DNA of 64,000 nt from Catillopecten margaritatus gill symbiont. GTDB taxonomy: Bacteria; Pseudomonadota; Gammaproteobacteria; PS1; Pseudothioglobaceae. This document shows, one piece after another, positions 51,901 to 63,923 of this stretch. How positions within the stretch are numbered: the first letter of the stretch is position 1; every line of letters starts with the position of its first letter. The DNA is taken from positions 744,001 through 808,000 of the forward strand of contig CP138327.1 in the NCBI GenBank assembly GCA_037956075.1. Reading direction: 5' to 3'. Under the pieces are notes generated by a model that was not told the origin of the DNA, made no database searches, and worked only from the letters and a program-made list of their open reading frames with translations. Made by a program: the position numbers and the translations under genes.

Positions 51901-52848
51901 ATGAAAAAAATATTGTCAATATTGGTAGTGATTGCCGCTATCGCTTGGTATTTATGCGATGATGAGAGATATAAATTTGAAAAAATCGCTGAAAATGTCT
52001 ATATCATGCATGGCCCACTTGACGAGCCTAACCCAGAAAATCGGGGTTTTATGAATAATCCTGGATTAGTGGTTGGTGAAAATGGTGCTGCCATTATCGA
52101 CCCAGGCGGCGCTTACGAGGTGGGTAAAAATGTCATCGCTGCCGCAGAAAAAATCACTGATAAACCGATTGTTGTTGTTTTTAATACCCATGTTCATGGT
52201 GACCACTGGCTCGGCAATCAGGCGGTTGTTGAGCGTTATCCTAATGTCAAAATTTACGCCCACACCAATATGATTAAACAAGCCAAAGATGGCAAAGGCG
52301 ATACTTGGTTGGCGTTAATGCGCAATTTAACCGAAGGCGCCACTAACGACACGGTTGCCGTTTACCCAACCGATGCGACAACCCATTTACAAGTGATTAA
52401 AGCAGGCGGTGAAACTTTTAAAATCCACCACGATATTACCGGCGTAGCACATACCAATACCGATATTATGGTCGAGCATGTGAGCAGTAAAACGCTGTTT
52501 TTAGGCGATAATGGTTTTATTAATAGGCAAGGAAGGTTTGACAATACTTCCGATATGCACGGCAATATTAAAGCACTAGAATATGCAATTGATTTGGATT
52601 TGACTCATTATGTTCCTGGTCACGGTAAAACAGGTGATGTAGAGCACAGTGTAAAACCTTTCTTAAATTATTTACGCATCGTGCGTGATGAAGTCAAAAA
52701 AGGTTACGAAAAAGACTTAGCCGACTACGAAATTAAGCCAGCCGTCCATCAAAAATTAACCGATTATCACCACTGGCATGGCTATGAGGATGGCATAGGC
52801 AAGTATGTTGGTAAAATGTTTAATGAGATTGAGGCCTTAGACGAATAA
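51901..52848 (+). CDS. Metallo-beta-lactamase-fold hydrolase, exported
   Basis: A 315-residue protein with an N-terminal signal anchor (about residues 1-18) and a zinc-binding MBL domain: THVHGDHWLGN (about residue 96), His in GVAHTNTDIMV, LFLGDNGF (Asp) and HYVPGHGKTG (His). Similar exported hydrolases (SoxH or quinoprotein-relay type) occur in sulfur oxidisers; a thiol-ester or sulfur substrate is possible but unproven. AGGAG at 51891-51895 selects ATG 51901 over the adjacent GTG. The stop codon lies inside the first copy of a 28-bp tandem repeat. Confidence 0.85.
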   Translation: MKKILSILVVIAAIAWYLCDDERYKFEKIAENVYIMHGPLDEPNPENRGFMNNPGLVVGENGAAIIDPGGAYEVGKNVIAAAEKITDKPIVVVFNTHVHGDHWLGNQAVVERYPNVKIYAHTNMIKQAKDGKGDTWLALMRNLTEGATNDTVAVYPTDATTHLQVIKAGGETFKIHHDITGVAHTNTDIMVEHVSSKTLFLGDNGFINRQGRFDNTSDMHGNIKALEYAIDLDLTHYVPGHGKTGDVEHSVKPFLNYLRIVRDEVKKGYEKDLADYEIKPAVHQKLTDYHHWHGYEDGIGKYVGKMFNEIEALDE

Positions 52849-52922
52849 CAAGGCTACTATCATCCTGGACGAGTAACAAGGCTACTGTCATCCTGGACGA
52901 GTAACAAGGCTACTGTCATCCC
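52839..52922. repeat. Three tandem 28-bp repeats at the 3' end of the MBL gene
   Basis: Units at 52839-52866, 52867-52894 and 52895-52922, each a variant of GACGAGTAACAAGGCTACTG followed by TCATCC. The first copy differs at three or four positions and contains the last codons and TAA stop of the MBL gene; later copies are nearly identical. It looks like duplication of the gene's 3' tail. The last copy runs into the palindrome that follows. Confidence 0.85.
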
Positions 52923-52982
52923 GAGCGTAGTCGAGGGATCTTGCAAAACAGATAAAGATTCCTCGACTACGCTCGGAATGAC
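52915..52982. repeat. REP-like palindrome (CGAGCGTAGTCGAGG)
   Basis: A 68-bp inverted repeat with arms GTCATCCCGAGCGTAGTCGA and its near inverse TCGACTACGCTCGGAATGAC, continued by GGGATCTT / AAGATTCC, around a loop of about 14 bases. This motif is a widely scattered bacterial extragenic repeat. It lies between the convergent MBL and glutaredoxin genes. A single related arm (GGCTACGCTCGGAATGACA) occurs in each copy of the 2385-bp unit, at about 55312, 57697 and 60082. Confidence 0.78.
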
Positions 52983-53015
52983 AAAGTGGGATTAACTCGA
53001 GACGATAAAGTGGGC

Positions 53016-53255
53016 TTAATCAAAAAATCCGTCCATATGCAATTCAGTTAAATCGCTAAATCCACCGATGTGCTTATCGTCAATGACAATTTGTGGCACC
53101 ATTCTAGCGCCATCCGTAACTTTTGAAAACTCTGCCATTAAGGCACGGTCTTCATCAATCATTTTTTGTTCAAAGGGTAAGTTCCATTTGTTTAATAAGG
53201 TTTTAGTTTTGACGCAAATTGGACAGGTATTGGTGGAATAGACGACTATTTTCAT
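53016..53255 (-). CDS. Glutaredoxin-like protein
   Basis: A 79-residue glutaredoxin-fold protein with active site [14 protein letters not shown] (CPIC at about residues 11-14), the cis-proline in [19 protein letters not shown] and the GG glutathione-site motif. The CPIC site differs from the usual CPYC. It overlaps the end of leuB by four bases on the same strand, so it is the last gene of the unit peroxiredoxin, rubredoxin, leuB, glutaredoxin. A redox partnership with the upstream peroxiredoxin is plausible. Confidence 0.9.
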
Positions 53256-54319
53256 AACGCTTCTACCACCAAATCACCCATTTTACTTGTGCCAACAATT
53301 ATATCGCCCTCGCTGGCAATATCTTGAGTGCGGTAGCCTTGGTCTAAAACGCTATTAACGGCTGCTTCAATTTTCTCTGCAAGGGTTTCTTGATTGAGTG
53401 AATAACGCAACATCATTGCTACTGAAAGAATGGTTGCTAATGGGTTTGCTAAATCTTGTCCAGCAATGTCAGGAGCACTGCCGTGAATTGGCTCGTACAT
53501 ACCAAAACCGTCTTTATTGAGTGATGCCGATGGCAACATACCAATCGAACCTGTCAACATTGCTGCACAATCCGACAGCACATCGCCAAACAAATTACTG
53601 GTTACCATGACATCAAATTGCTTGGGTGCTTTGACGAGTTGCATCGCTGCATTGTCCACATACATATGCGAAAGTTCAACATCTGGGTATTCTTTTGCCA
53701 CTTCTTCCATGGTTTCACGCCATAATTCACATACTTCTAACACATTCGCTTTATCCACTGAACAAACACGCTTGTCTCGCAATTGAGCAATTTTAAAGGC
53801 TGAATGTCCGATGCGTTTGATTTCAGATTCAAAATAAGTTGCGGTATTAAAACCGTATTTTTCGCCATTTTTCTCTTCCACGCCTCGTGGTTGACCAAAA
53901 TAAATCCCTGCCACCAACTCACGCACAATCATCAAATCCAAACCCGAAACCACCTCTTCTTTTAAAGTCGAGGCACTGGCGAGTTGCGGATACAAAATCG
54001 CAGGGCGCAAGTTAGAAAACAAATCCATCTCTGCACGCAAACCTAACAAGCCTCGCTCTGGACGCAAATCTCGTTCCAACTTTTCCCACTGATAACCACC
54101 CACAGCACCCAACAAAATAGAATCACATTCTGCCGCCGCATCTAGCGTCGCCTGTGGCAATGGCGAACCCGTGTCATCATACGCCGTGCCACCAATTAAC
54201 CCGTGTACCAATGCCATATTAAGTTCGTTATTTTCATTCAGAAAATTGATAACTTTCAACGCCTGCTCGACAATCTCTTGCCCAATGCCATCACCTGGTA
54301 ATATTAATACTTTTGACAT
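53252..54319 (-). CDS. leuB: LeuB, 3-isopropylmalate dehydrogenase (only intact copy)
   Basis: A 355-residue NAD-dependent enzyme of leucine synthesis. It shows [16 protein letters not shown], the substrate loop [22 protein letters not shown], the Asp metal ligands in [17 protein letters not shown] and the NAD site [17 protein letters not shown]. It starts in the TAATG overlap with the rubredoxin stop. Two 61-codon 5' fragments of this gene occur further right as part of the triplication; this copy alone is complete. leuC and leuD are not adjacent. Confidence 0.95.
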
Positions 54320-54483
54320 TAAATTTCAACCATTTCAAATTGATCCTTAGTCACGCCACAATCAGGGCAAACCCAATCTTCTGGCACATCTTCCCATTTT
54401 GTACCTGGCGCAAGCCCTTCTTTTTCAGAACCTTTTGCTTCATCATAAACCCAACCACAAACCATACATTTATACTTTTTCAT
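54319..54483 (-). CDS. Rubredoxin, copy 1
   Basis: A 54-residue one-iron electron carrier with the two cysteine pairs CMVCGW and CPDCGV (about residues 6-9 and 39-42) and the YDEAKGS / [11 protein letters not shown] core. ATG 54483 has GCAGGAG at a good distance; the longer frame from 54519 reads through the terminator hairpin and is rejected. The stop overlaps leuB (TAATG). Rubredoxins can pass electrons to peroxide- or superoxide-reducing enzymes, which fits the peroxiredoxin gene just upstream. Confidence 0.95.
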
Positions 54484-54496
54484 CTTTTTCTCCTGC

Positions 54497-54530
54497 AAAA
54501 AAAAGGGAGTGAAACCCACTCCCTTTTTTA
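54497..54530 (-). terminator. Hairpin between peroxiredoxin and rubredoxin (copy 1)
   Basis: The stem GGGAGTG / CACTCCC with a five-base loop and A/T runs on both sides. On the minus strand it should end or reduce transcription after the peroxiredoxin gene and before the rubredoxin gene, leaving a lower level for rubredoxin-leuB. The same hairpin recurs at 56882-56915 and 59267-59300. Confidence 0.85.
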
Positions 54531-54548
54531 TTAAATTTTTTAACGCAA

Positions 54549-55148
54549 TTACAGCTTGTCAGCGTTCTTAGTTAGATACTCAGCCACACCCTCTGGCGTG
54601 TCCTTCATACCTTCATCGCCCTTATTCCAACCTGCTGGACAAACCTCGCCGTGTGTTGTGTGGAAATCAAGCGCATCTACCATACGCAACATCTCATCAA
54701 CATCACGACCCAATGGCAAATCATTGACAACTTGATGACGCACATCAAAATTCTCATCAATCAAAAATGACGCACGAAGCGCAATACCCGCTGGATGAAC
54801 AACGCCGTAAGATTCCATAATCGAATGATTAACATCCGCAACCAATGGAAAATCAATCTTGCCTAAACCGCCATCTTTCGGGTCAGTATTTCTCCAAGCG
54901 TTATGCGTGAATTGTGAATCAATAGAAACGCCTACCACTTCAACACCCTTTTCAGCGAACTTCGCCATACGGTGATGATGTGCCAAAATCTCAGAAGGAC
55001 ATACAAAAGTGAAGTCCAACGGATAAAAGAATAACATAATTTTCTTACCCTTAAGGCTTGAAAGAGTAAAGTCATCTACGATTGACCCATCTGCCAATAC
55101 CGCCGCAGAAGTAAAGTCTGGTGCTTGTTGTGTTACTAAAACGCTCAT
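54549..55148 (-). CDS. Typical 2-Cys peroxiredoxin (AhpC/Prx1 type), copy 1
   Basis: A 199-residue thiol peroxidase that reduces hydrogen peroxide and organic peroxides. The peroxidatic cysteine is in [10 protein letters not shown] (about residue 52) and the resolving cysteine in GEVCPAGW (about 170), the 2-Cys Prx1/AhpC arrangement. ATG 55148 ([12 protein letters not shown]) has GGAGAAAA upstream; the frame to 55208 is not credible. ahpF is absent; thioredoxin, glutaredoxin or rubredoxin could be the reductant. Confidence 0.94.
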
Positions 55149-55415
55149 ATTTTTCTCCAAAATTACAATATATAAAGTGCTAATTATACAACCCAATAGC
55201 CTTCTCAATCATATAAAAGTGGGAAATATTTTTATTCAACTTATTTGTAATTGATATTTTGTTACCTTGGATGTAGCTAAAAGACCTTTGTTAACTTTAT
55301 AAGATTCATCGGCTACGCTCGGAATGACAGTGGAAATTGAACATTTATTGATGCTTATTAGAATTACAAGGTCAAAAATCAGTCTGAACCATACGCCTTA
55401 CTTTATGGTTTTAAT

Positions 55416-56520
55416 TTAAAAATCAAAGTTGTAGCGTAGAACTAAACTGGTTTTATTCTGGTCGGGAAAATAGGCTTTGTATTCACTATCCACATCGCCA
55501 GTAGTTTGTGAGTGAGAGACATTGAGTTGCAGGTTGTTAGCAAGGTCGTGGCTCCATTTTAGAGTATTTAGGGCGGAGTTGTCAGTGCTGGTACGACGGC
55601 TGAGGCTGAGTTCGTGGGTGTTGAATTTTTTGCCCAAACGCAAAAAATGATAGCGTTGGCGTAGTCCATTTGGGCGAACTAGGGCTAAACCTGCAGCACC
55701 TCTGAGTTTGTAATTTTGCCATTCTTGGTTGTTCATACCTCGGTCGTCTTGGCTAATTTCAGCGATAAGATTGGTGTTATTATCACTGATCCAGTGCCAG
55801 CCTAGCATTGAACGGGTATAGCGTCTTCCATCATTTTCTCGGTATGTGCCTACCGTTGCAGTTGGCATATTCAAACTTGCTAGAGTGGTGCCTTTACGGG
55901 TGAAAAAGGATCCGTAGAGTTTTGAATTATCATTGGCAATGTGGCGAAAACCTGCACCAAAACCTGTTTTAACGCCTTCTTTTTTATGAATAATGAACGA
56001 TAAATCAGTGTTATTATTGAGAAAATAATTGAGCCTAACACCTTGTGATTTGTAGCCATAGCCACGCACGGCATTGCGTTGTTTTGTATCATCGCCCATA
56101 TAAAAATCTAAGGCGCCATTTTCTAAAATGTAACGAGTGGCAATGGCATTGATACCGAGTTTTTCGTTTAAATCATCGTTATTATTAGGTGGATGATAGG
56201 GGTCGGTAACAGCCAAAGGATTAAAGGCGTAGCCGAGTTGCCAGTTTTCGATAAATTTACCTATTTGCACGCTTAATTCATCGTTAATATCTTTGATATA
56301 AAAGAGTTTCTGGATGGTGGTTTTTTCGGCTTCTGTTTCATATTTGAGTTGATATTCAACGCCTAACATATCACCATTAAATGACAAAATAGCGTTGGTT
56401 TTTTCTGCGCCCCTTAGCGTGTTTGACACAACTGGGTTTTCCCATAGTCCATCTCTGTCCAGCTTGTAACTGTGAGTGGTGATATTGAGTTGGTTGACAG
56501 GTTTGGCAACGGCGTTGCCG
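55416..56520 (-). pseudogene. Outer-membrane barrel gene, 5'-truncated (copy 1)
   Basis: Identical to the intact gene at 60186-61328 except that its first 38 bases (start codon and most of the signal peptide) are replaced by leuB sequence at the junction 56520/56521. The remaining frame can start only at an internal GTG (56429), giving 337 residues with no signal peptide, so the product should not reach the outer membrane. It may still be transcribed from the unit to its right. The barrel C-terminus ends LRYNFDF as in the parent. Confidence 0.9.
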
Positions 56521-56704
56521 CCGCATCTAGCGTCGCCTGTGGCAATGGCGAACCCGTGTCATCATACGCCGTGCCACCAATTAACCCGTGTACCAATGCC
56601 ATATTAAGTTCGTTATTTTCATTCAGAAAATTGATAACTTTCAACGCCTGCTCGACAATCTCTTGCCCAATGCCATCACCTGGTAATATTAATACTTTTG
56701 ACAT
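56521..56704 (-). pseudogene. leuB 5' fragment (copy 2)
   Basis: The first 61 codons of leuB, identical to the intact gene, starting at ATG 56704 in the TAATG overlap with rubredoxin. After the junction the frame continues out of phase into the barrel gene for about 35 residues and stops at 56414, predicting a 96-residue chimera with no expected function. The NAD and metal sites are missing. Confidence 0.92.
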
Positions 56705-56868
56705 TAAATTTCAACCATTTCAAATTGATCCTTAGTCACGCCACAATCAGGGCAAACCCAATCTTCTGGCACATCTTCCCATTTTGTACCTGGCGCAAGC
56801 CCTTCTTTTTCAGAACCTTTTGCTTCATCATAAACCCAACCACAAACCATACATTTATACTTTTTCAT
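56704..56868 (-). CDS. Rubredoxin, copy 2
   Basis: Identical 54-residue rubredoxin within the second unit, with the same ATG, GCAGGAG site and TAATG overlap, here with the truncated leuB. The CXXC pairs are intact, so it should be functional. Selection for rubredoxin dosage is possible, although it may simply be carried along with the peroxiredoxin gene. Confidence 0.94.
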
Positions 56869-56933
56869 CTTTTTCTCCTGCAAAAAAAAGGGAGTGAAAC
56901 CCACTCCCTTTTTTATTAAATTTTTTAACGCAA

Positions 56934-57533
56934 TTACAGCTTGTCAGCGTTCTTAGTTAGATACTCAGCCACACCCTCTGGCGTGTCCTTCATACCTTCA
57001 TCGCCCTTATTCCAACCTGCTGGACAAACCTCGCCGTGTGTTGTGTGGAAATCAAGCGCATCTACCATACGCAACATCTCATCAACATCACGACCCAATG
57101 GCAAATCATTGACAACTTGATGACGCACATCAAAATTCTCATCAATCAAAAATGACGCACGAAGCGCAATACCCGCTGGATGAACAACGCCGTAAGATTC
57201 CATAATCGAATGATTAACATCCGCAACCAATGGAAAATCAATCTTGCCTAAACCGCCATCTTTCGGGTCAGTATTTCTCCAAGCGTTATGCGTGAATTGT
57301 GAATCAATAGAAACGCCTACCACTTCAACACCCTTTTCAGCGAACTTCGCCATACGGTGATGATGTGCCAAAATCTCAGAAGGACATACAAAAGTGAAGT
57401 CCAACGGATAAAAGAATAACATAATTTTCTTACCCTTAAGGCTTGAAAGAGTAAAGTCATCTACGATTGACCCATCTGCCAATACCGCCGCAGAAGTAAA
57501 GTCTGGTGCTTGTTGTGTTACTAAAACGCTCAT
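56934..57533 (-). CDS. 2-Cys peroxiredoxin, copy 2
   Basis: Identical to the copy at 54549-55148, 199 residues with both catalytic cysteines. The whole upstream intergenic region (57534-57800) is duplicated too, so any promoter in it is present in each copy. The terminator hairpin after it is also retained. Intact and presumably expressed, raising total enzyme dosage. Confidence 0.93.
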
Positions 57534-57800
57534 ATTTTTCTCCAAAATTACAATATATAAAGTGCTAATTATACAACCCAATAGCCTTCTCAATCATATA
57601 AAAGTGGGAAATATTTTTATTCAACTTATTTGTAATTGATATTTTGTTACCTTGGATGTAGCTAAAAGACCTTTGTTAACTTTATAAGATTCATCGGCTA
57701 CGCTCGGAATGACAGTGGAAATTGAACATTTATTGATGCTTATTAGAATTACAAGGTCAAAAATCAGTCTGAACCATACGCCTTACTTTATGGTTTTAAT

Positions 57801-58905
57801 TTAAAAATCAAAGTTGTAGCGTAGAACTAAACTGGTTTTATTCTGGTCGGGAAAATAGGCTTTGTATTCACTATCCACATCGCCAGTAGTTTGTGAGTGA
57901 GAGACATTGAGTTGCAGGTTGTTAGCAAGGTCGTGGCTCCATTTTAGAGTATTTAGGGCGGAGTTGTCAGTGCTGGTACGACGGCTGAGGCTGAGTTCGT
58001 GGGTGTTGAATTTTTTGCCCAAACGCAAAAAATGATAGCGTTGGCGTAGTCCATTTGGGCGAACTAGGGCTAAACCTGCAGCACCTCTGAGTTTGTAATT
58101 TTGCCATTCTTGGTTGTTCATACCTCGGTCGTCTTGGCTAATTTCAGCGATAAGATTGGTGTTATTATCACTGATCCAGTGCCAGCCTAGCATTGAACGG
58201 GTATAGCGTCTTCCATCATTTTCTCGGTATGTGCCTACCGTTGCAGTTGGCATATTCAAACTTGCTAGAGTGGTGCCTTTACGGGTGAAAAAGGATCCGT
58301 AGAGTTTTGAATTATCATTGGCAATGTGGCGAAAACCTGCACCAAAACCTGTTTTAACGCCTTCTTTTTTATGAATAATGAACGATAAATCAGTGTTATT
58401 ATTGAGAAAATAATTGAGCCTAACACCTTGTGATTTGTAGCCATAGCCACGCACGGCATTGCGTTGTTTTGTATCATCGCCCATATAAAAATCTAAGGCG
58501 CCATTTTCTAAAATGTAACGAGTGGCAATGGCATTGATACCGAGTTTTTCGTTTAAATCATCGTTATTATTAGGTGGATGATAGGGGTCGGTAACAGCCA
58601 AAGGATTAAAGGCGTAGCCGAGTTGCCAGTTTTCGATAAATTTACCTATTTGCACGCTTAATTCATCGTTAATATCTTTGATATAAAAGAGTTTCTGGAT
58701 GGTGGTTTTTTCGGCTTCTGTTTCATATTTGAGTTGATATTCAACGCCTAACATATCACCATTAAATGACAAAATAGCGTTGGTTTTTTCTGCGCCCCTT
58801 AGCGTGTTTGACACAACTGGGTTTTCCCATAGTCCATCTCTGTCCAGCTTGTAACTGTGAGTGGTGATATTGAGTTGGTTGACAGGTTTGGCAACGGCGT
58901 TGCCG
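57801..58905 (-). pseudogene. Outer-membrane barrel gene, 5'-truncated (copy 2)
   Basis: Same structure as the truncated copy at 55416-56520: the first 38 bases are lost at the junction 58905/58906 and replaced by leuB sequence. The only start is the internal GTG at 58814. Without a signal peptide the product would remain in the cytosol. No further decay is visible, which argues that the event is recent. Confidence 0.9.
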
Positions 58906-59089
58906 CCGCATCTAGCGTCGCCTGTGGCAATGGCGAACCCGTGTCATCATACGCCGTGCCACCAATTAACCCGTGTACCAATGCCATATTAAGTTCGTTA
59001 TTTTCATTCAGAAAATTGATAACTTTCAACGCCTGCTCGACAATCTCTTGCCCAATGCCATCACCTGGTAATATTAATACTTTTGACAT
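58906..59089 (-). pseudogene. leuB 5' fragment (copy 3)
   Basis: Second 61-codon leuB fragment, joined to the barrel gene at the same TGCCG junction and giving the same 96-residue out-of-frame chimera (59089-58799). Identity of the two junctions shows that the third copy came from recombination between existing copies and not from an independent event. Confidence 0.92.
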
Positions 59090-59253
59090 TAAATTTCAAC
59101 CATTTCAAATTGATCCTTAGTCACGCCACAATCAGGGCAAACCCAATCTTCTGGCACATCTTCCCATTTTGTACCTGGCGCAAGCCCTTCTTTTTCAGAA
59201 CCTTTTGCTTCATCATAAACCCAACCACAAACCATACATTTATACTTTTTCAT
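59089..59253 (-). CDS. Rubredoxin, copy 3
   Basis: Identical to the other two copies, with both CXXC pairs. It belongs to the rightmost unit, the one still attached to the intact barrel gene and therefore probably the original upstream context of the rubredoxin-peroxiredoxin pair. The leuB fragment follows it by TAATG. Confidence 0.94.
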
Positions 59254-59318
59254 CTTTTTCTCCTGCAAAAAAAAGGGAGTGAAACCCACTCCCTTTTTTA
59301 TTAAATTTTTTAACGCAA

Positions 59319-59918
59319 TTACAGCTTGTCAGCGTTCTTAGTTAGATACTCAGCCACACCCTCTGGCGTGTCCTTCATACCTTCATCGCCCTTATTCCAA
59401 CCTGCTGGACAAACCTCGCCGTGTGTTGTGTGGAAATCAAGCGCATCTACCATACGCAACATCTCATCAACATCACGACCCAATGGCAAATCATTGACAA
59501 CTTGATGACGCACATCAAAATTCTCATCAATCAAAAATGACGCACGAAGCGCAATACCCGCTGGATGAACAACGCCGTAAGATTCCATAATCGAATGATT
59601 AACATCCGCAACCAATGGAAAATCAATCTTGCCTAAACCGCCATCTTTCGGGTCAGTATTTCTCCAAGCGTTATGCGTGAATTGTGAATCAATAGAAACG
59701 CCTACCACTTCAACACCCTTTTCAGCGAACTTCGCCATACGGTGATGATGTGCCAAAATCTCAGAAGGACATACAAAAGTGAAGTCCAACGGATAAAAGA
59801 ATAACATAATTTTCTTACCCTTAAGGCTTGAAAGAGTAAAGTCATCTACGATTGACCCATCTGCCAATACCGCCGCAGAAGTAAAGTCTGGTGCTTGTTG
59901 TGTTACTAAAACGCTCAT
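59319..59918 (-). CDS. 2-Cys peroxiredoxin, copy 3
   Basis: Identical 199-residue enzyme. It lies 268 bases downstream of the intact barrel gene (60186) on the same strand. That gap holds the REP-like half-arm near 60082 and AT-rich sequence, and is where the gene's own promoter should be; I cannot fix the boxes. It is followed by the same hairpin as the other copies. Confidence 0.93.
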
Positions 59919-60185
59919 ATTTTTCTCCAAAATTACAATATATAAAGTGCTAATTATACAACCCAATAGCCTTCTCAATCATATAAAAGTGGGAAATATT
60001 TTTATTCAACTTATTTGTAATTGATATTTTGTTACCTTGGATGTAGCTAAAAGACCTTTGTTAACTTTATAAGATTCATCGGCTACGCTCGGAATGACAG
60101 TGGAAATTGAACATTTATTGATGCTTATTAGAATTACAAGGTCAAAAATCAGTCTGAACCATACGCCTTACTTTATGGTTTTAAT

Positions 60186-61328
60186 TTAAAAATCAAAGTT
60201 GTAGCGTAGAACTAAACTGGTTTTATTCTGGTCGGGAAAATAGGCTTTGTATTCACTATCCACATCGCCAGTAGTTTGTGAGTGAGAGACATTGAGTTGC
60301 AGGTTGTTAGCAAGGTCGTGGCTCCATTTTAGAGTATTTAGGGCGGAGTTGTCAGTGCTGGTACGACGGCTGAGGCTGAGTTCGTGGGTGTTGAATTTTT
60401 TGCCCAAACGCAAAAAATGATAGCGTTGGCGTAGTCCATTTGGGCGAACTAGGGCTAAACCTGCAGCACCTCTGAGTTTGTAATTTTGCCATTCTTGGTT
60501 GTTCATACCTCGGTCGTCTTGGCTAATTTCAGCGATAAGATTGGTGTTATTATCACTGATCCAGTGCCAGCCTAGCATTGAACGGGTATAGCGTCTTCCA
60601 TCATTTTCTCGGTATGTGCCTACCGTTGCAGTTGGCATATTCAAACTTGCTAGAGTGGTGCCTTTACGGGTGAAAAAGGATCCGTAGAGTTTTGAATTAT
60701 CATTGGCAATGTGGCGAAAACCTGCACCAAAACCTGTTTTAACGCCTTCTTTTTTATGAATAATGAACGATAAATCAGTGTTATTATTGAGAAAATAATT
60801 GAGCCTAACACCTTGTGATTTGTAGCCATAGCCACGCACGGCATTGCGTTGTTTTGTATCATCGCCCATATAAAAATCTAAGGCGCCATTTTCTAAAATG
60901 TAACGAGTGGCAATGGCATTGATACCGAGTTTTTCGTTTAAATCATCGTTATTATTAGGTGGATGATAGGGGTCGGTAACAGCCAAAGGATTAAAGGCGT
61001 AGCCGAGTTGCCAGTTTTCGATAAATTTACCTATTTGCACGCTTAATTCATCGTTAATATCTTTGATATAAAAGAGTTTCTGGATGGTGGTTTTTTCGGC
61101 TTCTGTTTCATATTTGAGTTGATATTCAACGCCTAACATATCACCATTAAATGACAAAATAGCGTTGGTTTTTTCTGCGCCCCTTAGCGTGTTTGACACA
61201 ACTGGGTTTTCCCATAGTCCATCTCTGTCCAGCTTGTAACTGTGAGTGGTGATATTGAGTTGGTTGACAGGTTTGGCAACGGCGTTGCCGATTAACAAAC
61301 TAACGAGGACAATGAGGAGGCTTTTCAT
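60186..61328 (-). CDS. Outer-membrane beta-barrel, DUF1302-like (only intact copy)
   Basis: A 380-residue protein with signal peptide MKSLLIVLVSLLIGNAVA and a mature domain of alternating beta strands ending LRYNFDF, a C-terminal Phe typical of outer-membrane barrels. The segment VQIGKFIENWQLGYAFNPL with DPYHPP parallels the GK-x-W-x-NP-x-DY segment of the larger DUF1302 barrel at 40327. Start ATG 61328 overlaps the LolA-like gene's TGA. It is the fourth gene of an ABC transporter operon and presumably its outer-membrane component. Two truncated copies lie to its left. Confidence 0.85.
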   Translation of the reverse strand: MKSLLIVLVSLLIGNAVAKPVNQLNITTHSYKLDRDGLWENPVVSNTLRGAEKTNAILSFNGDMLGVEYQLKYETEAEKTTIQKLFYIKDINDELSVQIGKFIENWQLGYAFNPLAVTDPYHPPNNNDDLNEKLGINAIATRYILENGALDFYMGDDTKQRNAVRGYGYKSQGVRLNYFLNNNTDLSFIIHKKEGVKTGFGAGFRHIANDNSKLYGSFFTRKGTTLASLNMPTATVGTYRENDGRRYTRSMLGWHWISDNNTNLIAEISQDDRGMNNQEWQNYKLRGAAGLALVRPNGLRQRYHFLRLGKKFNTHELSLSRRTSTDNSALNTLKWSHDLANNLQLNVSHSQTTGDVDSEYKAYFPDQNKTSLVLRYNFDF

Positions 61329-62014
61329 CTTATTGCGTTACGCATTCCTCTACTGGTTAAAAGGCGTTTTGGAATTTTTTTGCCTTTGACACCGAGGAAA
61401 TTCATCACGGTTTTTTGCTTTTTTGAGGTGTAAGTAATGCTTTTCAAAGTGTCGTCTTTGACATTGTAGTGCATTTTTTTATACAGTTTTCCACTTCTTA
61501 AATACGCCTGTGCGTCAATAGGTCTTTGGTCATCTTGGGCAATGACTAAAACAATTTTGTGATAAGTAGCGCTGGATTTTTTGGCAATAAGTTTTAAAGT
61601 AATCGTATTTTTTGCTTGTTTTAAAATCGTTGGCGTATAGTTTTCACTGAAACGCAAACCCGCAAGGTCGCCATACGATGCTTGCCCTAACAACCGCTGA
61701 ATTGGGGTAATACGCACGGCACGACTGCTGTTTTTTGGGGCAACAAACATACCTTTATGACTGAGTAAAATACGATTACCTTTGTCGCTACCATCTAAAA
61801 CACTGACCAAACTTTGTCCATCTTGGTGGAAAACTTTATAGTGTCGGCTTTTTTTAATTTTCCCATTTTTATACTCGTCAATTTTTATATCTAATTGTGC
61901 GTGGGTGAATGGTGAACGAAAAGTGTCTGCCTTAACTAATAATTCCATAGCACTCATTTGTGCCATGGCGGGTAAAGCGAACAATGCTAAAAATAATAGG
62001 TTTAAAATATTCAT
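61325..62014 (-). CDS. LolA-like outer-membrane lipoprotein-sorting family protein
   Basis: A 229-residue periplasmic protein with signal peptide (about residues 1-18, ending LPAMAQ). The mature part opens SAMELLVKADTFRSPFTHA and has ITPIQRLLGQASYGDLAGLRF followed by an ITLKLIAKK strand, the pattern of PF17131-type LolA-like proteins found beside ABC or RND exporters. It probably shuttles a lipidated or hydrophobic substrate from the ABC permease to the barrel. It is shorter than its counterpart at 42857 (312 residues). It overlaps the barrel gene by four bases. Confidence 0.83.
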   Translation of the reverse strand: MNILNLLFLALFALPAMAQMSAMELLVKADTFRSPFTHAQLDIKIDEYKNGKIKKSRHYKVFHQDGQSLVSVLDGSDKGNRILLSHKGMFVAPKNSSRAVRITPIQRLLGQASYGDLAGLRFSENYTPTILKQAKNTITLKLIAKKSSATYHKIVLVIAQDDQRPIDAQAYLRSGKLYKKMHYNVKDDTLKSITYTSKKQKTVMNFLGVKGKKIPKRLLTSRGMRNAIR

Positions 62015-62016
62015 AA

Positions 62017-63258
62017 TTATGTGTGTGAAAGTTGCTCAACCACTTTCTTTTTTAAAATTTTATTAATCGGTAAATAGGAAGCGACAACGCCCAACAAACT
62101 CATCGCCAGCAACACCCAAACTGCCATATCCACAGTTGGCAATATTAGCAATGGGTATTGTGTGGAACGCCCTGGTGGAGGTGGCATCATAATACCCGCT
62201 TGACTAATGAAAAACGCCAAAACAAAGCCCAATATCACACCAAAAATAGCACCCATAAAACCAATGATTAAACCCTCAAAAACGAAGTTAAGTCGCAGTT
62301 GCCATTTTTCAATACCAAAGGCTCGCAAGGTGCCGATTTCTGGCACTCGTTCATTCACCGTTGTGCCCATCACATTTGCCACGGACAGCAAGGCGACTGT
62401 CATAATAATCACACCCATTACGGTGAAAATCGAATAATAAATAACCTCTACCGCCTTGAAATACGGCTTAATGTCATACCAAGGTCGTACGGTCATTTTT
62501 GTGTTTTTCACTAAGTTTTCGACTGCGGGTAAGACGGCTTTGGTTGCTTCAATATCACGCAATTGCACGACAATACTACTGACTTTATCCGTGAACAATA
62601 ATTTTTGTGCTAAGGCAATTGGCACTTTGATGTTTAATTGGTTAGTAATCGGAATACCTGTGTCGTAAATACCGCTCACGGTAGCATCAATAGCATTAAT
62701 TCCCCCTTCAACGGTATTGGCAAGTAGCACAACTTCATCGCCAACATCGACGCTGAGTTTTTTGGCCAAATCAATGGCTAACACAGCTTGAAAAGGATTT
62801 TTATCGGTGTTTTTAAACATTGCACCTTTAATGAAAGCACCTGATGCATTGCCTTGTTGCAGGCGTTTTTCTTTGAGATTTTCAATACCTGTGCCGCGAA
62901 ATACGGTGCTGATACTGTCGTCTTTTGAGAGGATGCCAGTGAATAAAATGCGTTTCATTGCACGACGAACGGACTTAGTTTTTTCTAATTTTATGACGGT
63001 TTCATCAGCAGTTTTGCTACTGAGTCCGAACTCTAATAATTCGGTTTCAAAATCTGTTACCATGCGTTTATCCACGATTTGCATATTGCCTGTTCCGCCT
63101 TGAACGATGACCCTAGTTAAGCCCCAAAAAGTGAAATTGATGTAGCCATGTGCCACAATAATGGCACTAGAGACAATTGCCACTGTCCAGATTGCTACCA
63201 TTGAACGACGCTTGTTACGCACAACATTTCGCCATGCCATTTTGAACCATTTATTCAT
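62017..63258 (-). CDS. FtsX/LolC-like ABC transporter permease
   Basis: A 413-residue permease with the MacB/LolC layout: an N-terminal membrane helix (about 20-42) following MAWRNVVRNKRRS, a large periplasmic domain (about 45-265), and three C-terminal helices (about 270-400) with the FtsX-type stretch VNERVPEIGTLRAFGIEKWQ. Such permeases act as mechanotransmission devices extracting substrates from the inner membrane or periplasm. One permease gene only, so a homodimer is likely. Start ATG 63258 overlaps the ATPase stop. Confidence 0.9.
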   Translation of the reverse strand: MNKWFKMAWRNVVRNKRRSMVAIWTVAIVSSAIIVAHGYINFTFWGLTRVIVQGGTGNMQIVDKRMVTDFETELLEFGLSSKTADETVIKLEKTKSVRRAMKRILFTGILSKDDSISTVFRGTGIENLKEKRLQQGNASGAFIKGAMFKNTDKNPFQAVLAIDLAKKLSVDVGDEVVLLANTVEGGINAIDATVSGIYDTGIPITNQLNIKVPIALAQKLLFTDKVSSIVVQLRDIEATKAVLPAVENLVKNTKMTVRPWYDIKPYFKAVEVIYYSIFTVMGVIIMTVALLSVANVMGTTVNERVPEIGTLRAFGIEKWQLRLNFVFEGLIIGFMGAIFGVILGFVLAFFISQAGIMMPPPPGRSTQYPLLILPTVDMAVWVLLAMSLLGVVASYLPINKILKKKVVEQLSHT

Positions 63259-63923
63259 ACTAGTTCTCCGTCAAGCAAATTGATTGTATTGTTGACCTTA
63301 TTAAGCAAGCGCTCATCGTGGGTGGAAAATAGAAAAGTTGTACCCAAGTCTTGGTTTAGTTTTTTCATCAAGTCAATTAAGACAAAGGTATTTTCTGAAT
63401 CTAAGTTTGCCGTTGGCTCGTCTGCCAAAATCAGTTTTGATTCGCCCATCAATGAACGCGCCACTGACACTCTTTGCTGTTGTCCGCCGGACAATTGATT
63501 GGGAAAAGCATTCATTTTGTCTTTTAGCCCAACTTGCTTTAAAAAATATTGCGCTTGTGCTTTGCGTTCTTTGGCATTTGGAATGCTGGCAAGTGCCGAC
63601 ATTTCTACATTTTCTAATGCCGTTAGGACAGGCAATAAATTAAAATCTTGAAAAATAAAACCTAAATCAAAGGCACGCAAATGGTTGATATGTGCTTCAT
63701 CGTTATTATTAATTTTCACCCCATCAAAATAATACTCGCCACTACTCGCATCATCCAACAAGCCAATAATATTTAACAAAGTGCTTTTACCTGAACCACT
63801 CGGCCCAGAAACCGCAGTAAATGCCCCTGCTTCAATTTCCAAATCAATGCCTTTGAGTGCCTTGACTTCGGCAATCCCTTCGCCAAAAGTTTTGTTGATA
63901 TTTTTTAAACGAATTAAACTCAA
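63255..63923 (-). CDS. LolD/MacB-like ABC transporter ATP-binding protein
   Basis: A 222-residue ATPase with Walker A GPSGSGKST, the Q-loop in LGFIFQDFNLLP, signature LSGGQQQRVSVARSL, Walker B LILADEPTANLDS and the H-loop STHDE. These place it in the LolD/MacB/FtsE group that pairs with FtsX-type permeases. The start is TTG 63923 with GGGAG upstream. It is the first clearly visible gene of the module; an upstream gene ends 10 bases earlier. Confidence 0.92.
   Translation of the reverse strand: MSLIRLKNINKTFGEGIAEVKALKGIDLEIEAGAFTAVSGPSGSGKSTLLNIIGLLDDASSGEYYFDGVKINNNDEAHINHLRAFDLGFIFQDFNLLPVLTALENVEMSALASIPNAKERKAQAQYFLKQVGLKDKMNAFPNQLSGGQQQRVSVARSLMGESKLILADEPTANLDSENTFVLIDLMKKLNQDLGTTFLFSTHDERLLNKVNNTINLLDGELV

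Follow-up and report, generated by a model that had tools for sequence, protein, structure and literature searches.

Three identical peroxiredoxin-rubredoxin units in tandem, joined at five shared bases beside small hairpins, in a scallop gill symbiont genome

Introduction

How does a bacterial chromosome come to carry three identical copies of a stretch whose two ends share only five bases? The question is raised by a window of 64,000 nucleotides (nt; the whole stretch of DNA analysed here, positions 744,001 to 808,000 of contig CP138327.1 from the Catillopecten margaritatus gill symbiont). Positions 54131-61290 of this window form a tandem array of three head-to-tail 2385-bp units, 7160 bp in total (3 x 2385 + 5), in which genes for a rubredoxin and a peroxiredoxin lie between part of leuB and part of a gene labelled "barrel". 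Short-junction tandem duplication with RecA-dependent amplification is known for bacterial genes, and most known gene amplifications have come to light under laboratory or drug selection. The tract is probably a real tandem gene amplification on the chromosome, a new case of this well-known process and an unusually clean example of its type.

The genome to which the window belongs (G000) consists of one contig of 1.543 Mb with a completeness of 99.99 and a contamination of 0. Its source is most likely Candidatus Thiodubiliella margaritatus, an ectosymbiont of the deep-sea scallop Catillopecten margaritatus. For this ectosymbiont, one circular contig of 1.54 Mb with 99.99% completeness and 0% contamination is given in the available text of PMC10999363, where Nanopore reads were assembled with Canu and polished with Racon and Pilon, and Illumina sequencing was also used.

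Structure of the array

The repeated tract was delimited as follows.

54131..61290, no strand: whole repeated tract, 3 x 2385 bp plus 5 bp overlap (self-identity at offset, unit comparison)
54136..56520, no strand: unit 1, adjoining leuB (BLAST of the contig, unit comparison)
56521..58905, no strand: unit 2 (BLAST of the contig, unit comparison)
58906..61290, no strand: unit 3, adjoining the intact barrel start (BLAST of the contig, unit comparison)

Exact self-identity at an offset of 2385 was found as a single run from 54131 to 58905, the partner of which ends at 61290. Comparison of the three units gave 0 differences, and all lie in direct order, the middle copy not being inverted. A chance origin of the tract is ruled out by its length and identity. 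The three identical head-to-tail units with the 2385 offset, described in a preliminary description of this DNA, are thus confirmed to the base.

A BLAST search with the unit against the whole 1,542,691-bp contig, in which 40 of the 70 first-look candidates were scored, returned three full copies and at least 32 short matches; 31 of these 32 are a 29-nt dispersed repeat located within the unit. The scan for further exact tandem units with a period above 1 kb covered 464,000 bases, made up of the window and 400 kb of sampled sequence, and found none. Stretches of several kb, belonging to adhesin genes, recur 6.9-9.5 kb apart with 98-99.5% identity at two other loci (L052 and L070), so large repeats are not scarce in this genome.

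Junctions and hairpins

The parental sites and the two internal junctions have these positions.

54131..54135, plus strand: TGCCG, leuB parental site; its T is the final base of the hairpin AGAAT-CAC-ATTCT (54119-54131)
56516..56520, plus strand: junction 1, barrel to leuB, via TGCCG (unit comparison)
58901..58905, plus strand: junction 2, identical to junction 1 (unit comparison)
61275..61290, plus strand: palindrome GGCAAC-GGC-GTTGCC (61275-61289) overlapping TGCCG (61286-61290), barrel parental site (palindrome search)

The overlap of the parental sites is exactly TGCCG, with mismatches flanking it on both sides, as had been stated before. The join point thus has only these 5 bp in common, and no long repeat lies at the unit ends. 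When breakpoint pairs were drawn at random, about 0.7% had a junction homology of 5 bp or more (0.00712 of 200,000; 2206 of 300,000). Homology-assisted joining is therefore reasonable, chance microhomology was rejected at this expected rate, and the earlier proposal of microhomology joining or template switching gains support. Longer words common to leuB and the barrel gene were left unused, one of 11 bp at 54154/60907 and others of 10 bp at three pairs. In the 10 relatives aligned, the leuB bases at the homology site differ, by eye, from CGGCA.

At both parental sites, TGCCG stands at the base of a small hairpin; at the barrel site it overlaps the 3' arm of the palindrome. These paired hairpins, missed in the preliminary description, extend its account of the joining and are the sole new element. 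Their frequency was assessed on 579,773 pairs of non-extendable 5-bp repeats lying 1385-3385 bp apart (arms of at least 5, loop of 3-5). Hairpins stood at both sites on the side seen here in 547 of these pairs, on one same side, whichever it was, in 1,163, and on any side in 2,234; paired hairpins thus accompany 0.1-0.4% of comparable repeat pairs in a post hoc test.

Base rates of single palindromes were calculated outside the adhesin-rich stretches L052, L063 and L070 and with the window excluded from 54131 on. For palindromes with 6 bp or more per arm, four or more of them G/C, and a loop not exceeding 3, positions at most 5 nt away made up 0.37% of 394,130 bases; with loops of up to 5 nt, GC-rich palindromes accounted for 0.54% of positions in this wider set. 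The estimate from the window alone (array included, loops up to 5 nt) was higher: GC-rich palindromes were near 0.93% of positions, and palindromes of any composition near 5.2%.

In the Bathymodiolus brooksi symbiont (L048, near 9100), a different perfect palindrome, GGCATT-GCA-AATGCC, was seen by eye near the start of the barrel gene, and an imperfect one was seen by eye at the corresponding place in the barrel gene of the B. septemdierum Lau symbiont. Both could be due to chance.

Gene content of the unit and its flanks

The parental order on the minus strand, read from right to left, is ABC ATPase, permease, LolA-like protein, barrel gene, peroxiredoxin, rubredoxin and leuB, and the unit has one end within the barrel gene and the other within leuB. 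Open reading frames (ORFs) and other features are listed below.

53252..54319, minus strand: leuB, 3-isopropylmalate dehydrogenase, intact, 355 aa, left parental gene (TIGR00169, 504 bits)
54319..54483, minus strand: rubredoxin copy 1 (PF00301, E 1.9e-24); copies 2 and 3 at +2385 and +4770
54499..54529, no strand: terminator-like hairpin separating peroxiredoxin from rubredoxin, recurring at +2385 and +4770 (hairpin scan, plus-strand listing)
54552..55148, minus strand: AhpC/2-Cys type peroxiredoxin copy 1 (PF00578, E 6.4e-33); others at 56937-57533 and 59322-59918
55183..55188, minus strand: -10-like hexamer TATAAT in the unit, located some 35 nt 5' of the peroxiredoxin ATG (by eye)
55416..56429, minus strand: barrel ORF without its native start, unit 1; in unit 2 at 57801-58814 (ORF list)
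56414..56704, minus strand: leuB 5' end (63 residues) and out-of-frame tail over junction 1; over junction 2 at 58799-59089 (ORFs, profile scan)
60186..61328, minus strand: barrel-type gene, intact, 380 aa, right parental gene (ORF list)
61325..63923, minus strand: LolA-like protein, LolC/E-like permease and LolD-like ATPase (NCBIfam matches below cut-offs)

Both parental genes are intact at the edges of the array, as claimed earlier. The inner leuB copies encode the first 63 residues correctly and then an out-of-frame tail, giving ORFs of 96 aa; each inner barrel copy is missing the initial 38 nt (61291-61328 in the intact gene), its native start included, and has a 337-aa ORF that starts at an internal GTG, residue 44. 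In total, peroxiredoxin and rubredoxin are each present three times as whole genes; leuB and the barrel gene each have one whole copy and two truncated ones. Since the inner leuB and barrel copies are truncated, only peroxiredoxin and rubredoxin are tripled as complete genes, and an array of this content would likely raise the levels of both proteins.

For the barrel protein no match was obtained in Pfam or NCBIfam, and its name is a label from the preliminary description only. The Lol-like genes at 61325-63923 are the rest of an apparent operon ending in the barrel gene and lie outside the amplified unit. On the minus (gene) strand, the T run of the terminator-like hairpin falls, by eye, within the stem. 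The TATAAT at 55183-55188 was not among the promoters predicted by a promoter scan.

Arrangement in related genomes

Peroxiredoxin matches (E 1e-50 or better) were found in 62 of 83 genomes of the family, the window's own included, with three copies here and one in each of the 61 others; 16 of these 61 are one-contig genomes, and in draft genomes identical tandem copies could go unnoticed. A query spanning the junction, a search in relatives proposed with the preliminary description, was matched at full length only in the window's genome, one of the 12 genomes of the genus.

By tblastn, 22 loci chosen for matching the region or the barrel protein were examined. Together, leuB and peroxiredoxin occur in 20 of them (19 genomes), and rubredoxin stands between the two in 19 of these 20 loci (18 of the 19 genomes). 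A whole barrel operon adjoins leuB-rubredoxin-peroxiredoxin in the B. brooksi symbiont, and this single-copy arrangement likely represents the state before the duplication. The barrel operon is adjacent in the Lau symbiont too, truncated or frameshifted. In this genome the barrel-LolA-permease operon (L045 7362-10811) has the appearance of decay or frameshifting: the match to the barrel protein reaches no further than residue 228, and those to LolA and the permease are each split.

Discussion

The array probably arose by a replication pause, a template switch and RecA-type expansion. On the contig, the array occupies 798-805 kb, the best match to DnaA is found at 1247 kb and a second, weak one at 268 kb. 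Each of the window's four 16-kb bins has a negative GC skew, so that, with an origin near dnaA, the fork would move leftward through the array. With a leftward fork, leading-strand synthesis would pass through CGGCA immediately ahead of each hairpin or as it enters it, a geometry that fits the hairpin pausing model in the available text of PMC4134008. Leftward replication would copy minus-strand sequence and pause in leuB right after the CGGCA at the hairpin base; the 3' end would re-anneal with the CGGCA that lies 2.38 kb behind it, where the palindrome near the barrel gene start has its base, and this backward switch would duplicate the stretch between the two CGGCA sites. Unequal exchange of RecA type between the 2385-bp copies could then yield the third. 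A recA gene is present in the genome, so homologous expansion, as proposed in the preliminary description, is possible.

Several points weigh against this account. Copy number and identity come from one assembly which, if the source is right, was polished with Racon and Pilon. The fork direction presupposes an origin near dnaA, and the slippage model concerns deletions, so that a switch across 2.4 kb has to be assumed. The hairpin test was devised after the site had been seen. When the demand for G+C is dropped, 3.2% of positions lie at most 5 nt from a palindrome with 6-bp arms, which corresponds to a 6.3% chance for either of two breakpoints. The leuB hairpin has just five AT-rich pairs, local folding is only moderately better than in shuffled sequences (z -1.6 to -2.7), and the simple hairpin is not the best fold for the plus strand at the barrel site; folded alone, the hairpins are weak to moderate. 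Finally, in two one-contig genomes of the family (G013 and G023) leuB and peroxiredoxin are far apart.

An old array, kept identical by gene conversion and by selection for extra peroxiredoxin, would be compatible with the founding step described above; we regard such an age as unlikely. It would agree with the near-identity, in the same assembly, of 15 autotransporter barrel domain copies at four places, which show 0-3 differences over 900 nt, with 78 of 105 pairs showing none (15 of 17 copies were compared; two with longer alignments, at 98.35% protein identity, were left out). Gene conversion or polishing can therefore also produce identity here, which weakens the argument of the preliminary description that identity implies a very young and perhaps fluctuating amplification. 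The zero differences among the three units look young; identity alone is no proof of youth or of ongoing change and is not accepted as such. Against an old array, the inner leuB and barrel fragments also show 0 differences, though truncated, and no relative searched has the array, each species being represented by one genome.

It is improbable that a genome with one or two copies was written as three by the assembler or the polisher. Such an error would account for the identity of all three copies; one assembly is the sole support for them, short reads used in polishing cannot be placed uniquely in 2.4-kb repeats, and the assembly is rich in other near-identical repeats. However, the barrel-to-leuB junction links unrelated sequences and requires a real junction molecule, beyond collapse or expansion of a repeat. 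Multi-kb adhesin genes with differing repeat numbers are present in the same assembly, and the available text of PMC10999363 names a ligation-kit Nanopore library for the source study and reports the single circular contig at its 99.99% completeness.

A third route is an excision circle: joining of TGCCG to TGCCG would free a 2385-bp circle, and its re-entry into the chromosome by homologous recombination would give tandem copies. An identical junction and an array are what this route predicts, and the five bases are direct repeats flanking the unit. Yet two rare steps are required, the unit proteins scanned include no integrase, transposase or replication protein, and no relative of the transposase that we take to be IS30-like lies in the window; we give this route little credence.

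A mobile-element origin was rejected: the proteins scanned, from the unit and its neighbours, include neither transposase nor integrase, and the window, across which other insertion sequence (IS) families were not searched, holds no relative of that IS transposase. A terminus effect is unlikely as well, since an origin near the DnaA match at 1247 kb would place the array in mid-arm.

The pause and template switch, followed by expansion, can be set beside known systems. Like other short-junction amplifications, the array has direct-order copies, a unit of a few kb, a few shared bases joining unrelated genes, and whole parental genes; unlike the typical case, it lies in an uncultured symbiont without known selection, and its copies carry redox genes. 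Tandem inversion duplication is linked to small palindromes at its join points, but no inverted copy is present here. Amplifications of sdrM with microhomology or no homology at the joints are cited in the available part of PMC11721125.

In the slippage model, as given in the accessible part of PMC4134008, the polymerase pauses at hairpin bases and realigns on direct repeats. The array shares with it a direct repeat at a hairpin base, the expected pause point; the model and assays deal with deletions and a hairpin between the repeats, whereas here a 2.4-kb stretch is duplicated and each repeat has its own hairpin. Engineered tandem duplications in E. coli and B. subtilis, according to the text of PMC11111574 at hand, had designed, drug-selected borders with 9-bp GC-rich microhomology; recA was not essential for the founding join, efficiency and precision were lower without it, and an earlier study is cited in which microhomology was not necessary. 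The present array likewise has microhomology at the unit borders, but of 5 bp and natural.

Repeats and adhesin genes elsewhere in the genome

The 29-nt dispersed repeat (AAGATTC...CTCGGAATGACA) is REP-like and occurs in the window at 55301-55329 and 52914-52983 and at about 30 further places in the genome, partly as inverted pairs such as 52914-52942 and 52955-52983. Its copies in the unit (55301-55329) and to the left of leuB (52955-52983) are absent from the breakpoints, and it is therefore not the maker of the join. Three tandem 28-nt repeats at 52840-52923 run out of the end of a gene for a metallo-beta-lactamase-fold protein.

Inverse autotransporters (PF11924) gave 17 matches in G000 versus 0-10 in the 11 other genomes of the genus. 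The family is sited at 7-94, 908-924, 1088-1096 and 1416-1438 kb of the contig (C1; loci L052, L063, L070 and L073-L079). Its barrel domains are 98-100% alike, and the full-length C-terminal domains are 84.5-100% identical to one reference. Cadherin-type repeats of about 98 aa are carried by these proteins (Pfam, two proteins), and 14 ORFs of at least 500 aa have 1 to 16 matches to one such repeat. They are candidate host-surface adhesins of variable length; the main text of PMC10999363, so far as available, makes no mention of cadherin, adhesin or autotransporter.

Beside or between many adhesin genes lies a transposase-like ORF of 327 aa (HTH_38, weak rve match), the one presumed above to be IS30-like. 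It was found at L052 5450-6433, L063 11417-12400, L070 10244-11227 and 18871-19854, and others; most copies are 99.7-100% identical and one is degenerate.

Conclusions

No peroxiredoxin amplification of this kind, in Bathymodiolus symbionts or in symbionts generally, was reported in the titles and abstract beginnings found, and neither "peroxi" nor "oxidative" nor "antioxid" is mentioned in the main text of PMC10999363 as available, supplements excluded. At the speculative end, and with small probability, the array may be a selected, still variable peroxiredoxin/rubredoxin "gene accordion" of the ectosymbiont, with a copy number that would vary among scallops and track oxygen or peroxide at the gill surface, and with a founding join predictable from paired hairpin-based microhomologies. 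The paired hairpins at both join points offer a testable hint on how such joins begin. As an amplification resolved to the base in an uncultured animal symbiont, with reads that are public according to the likely source study, the array lets the natural frequency and stability of such events be asked.

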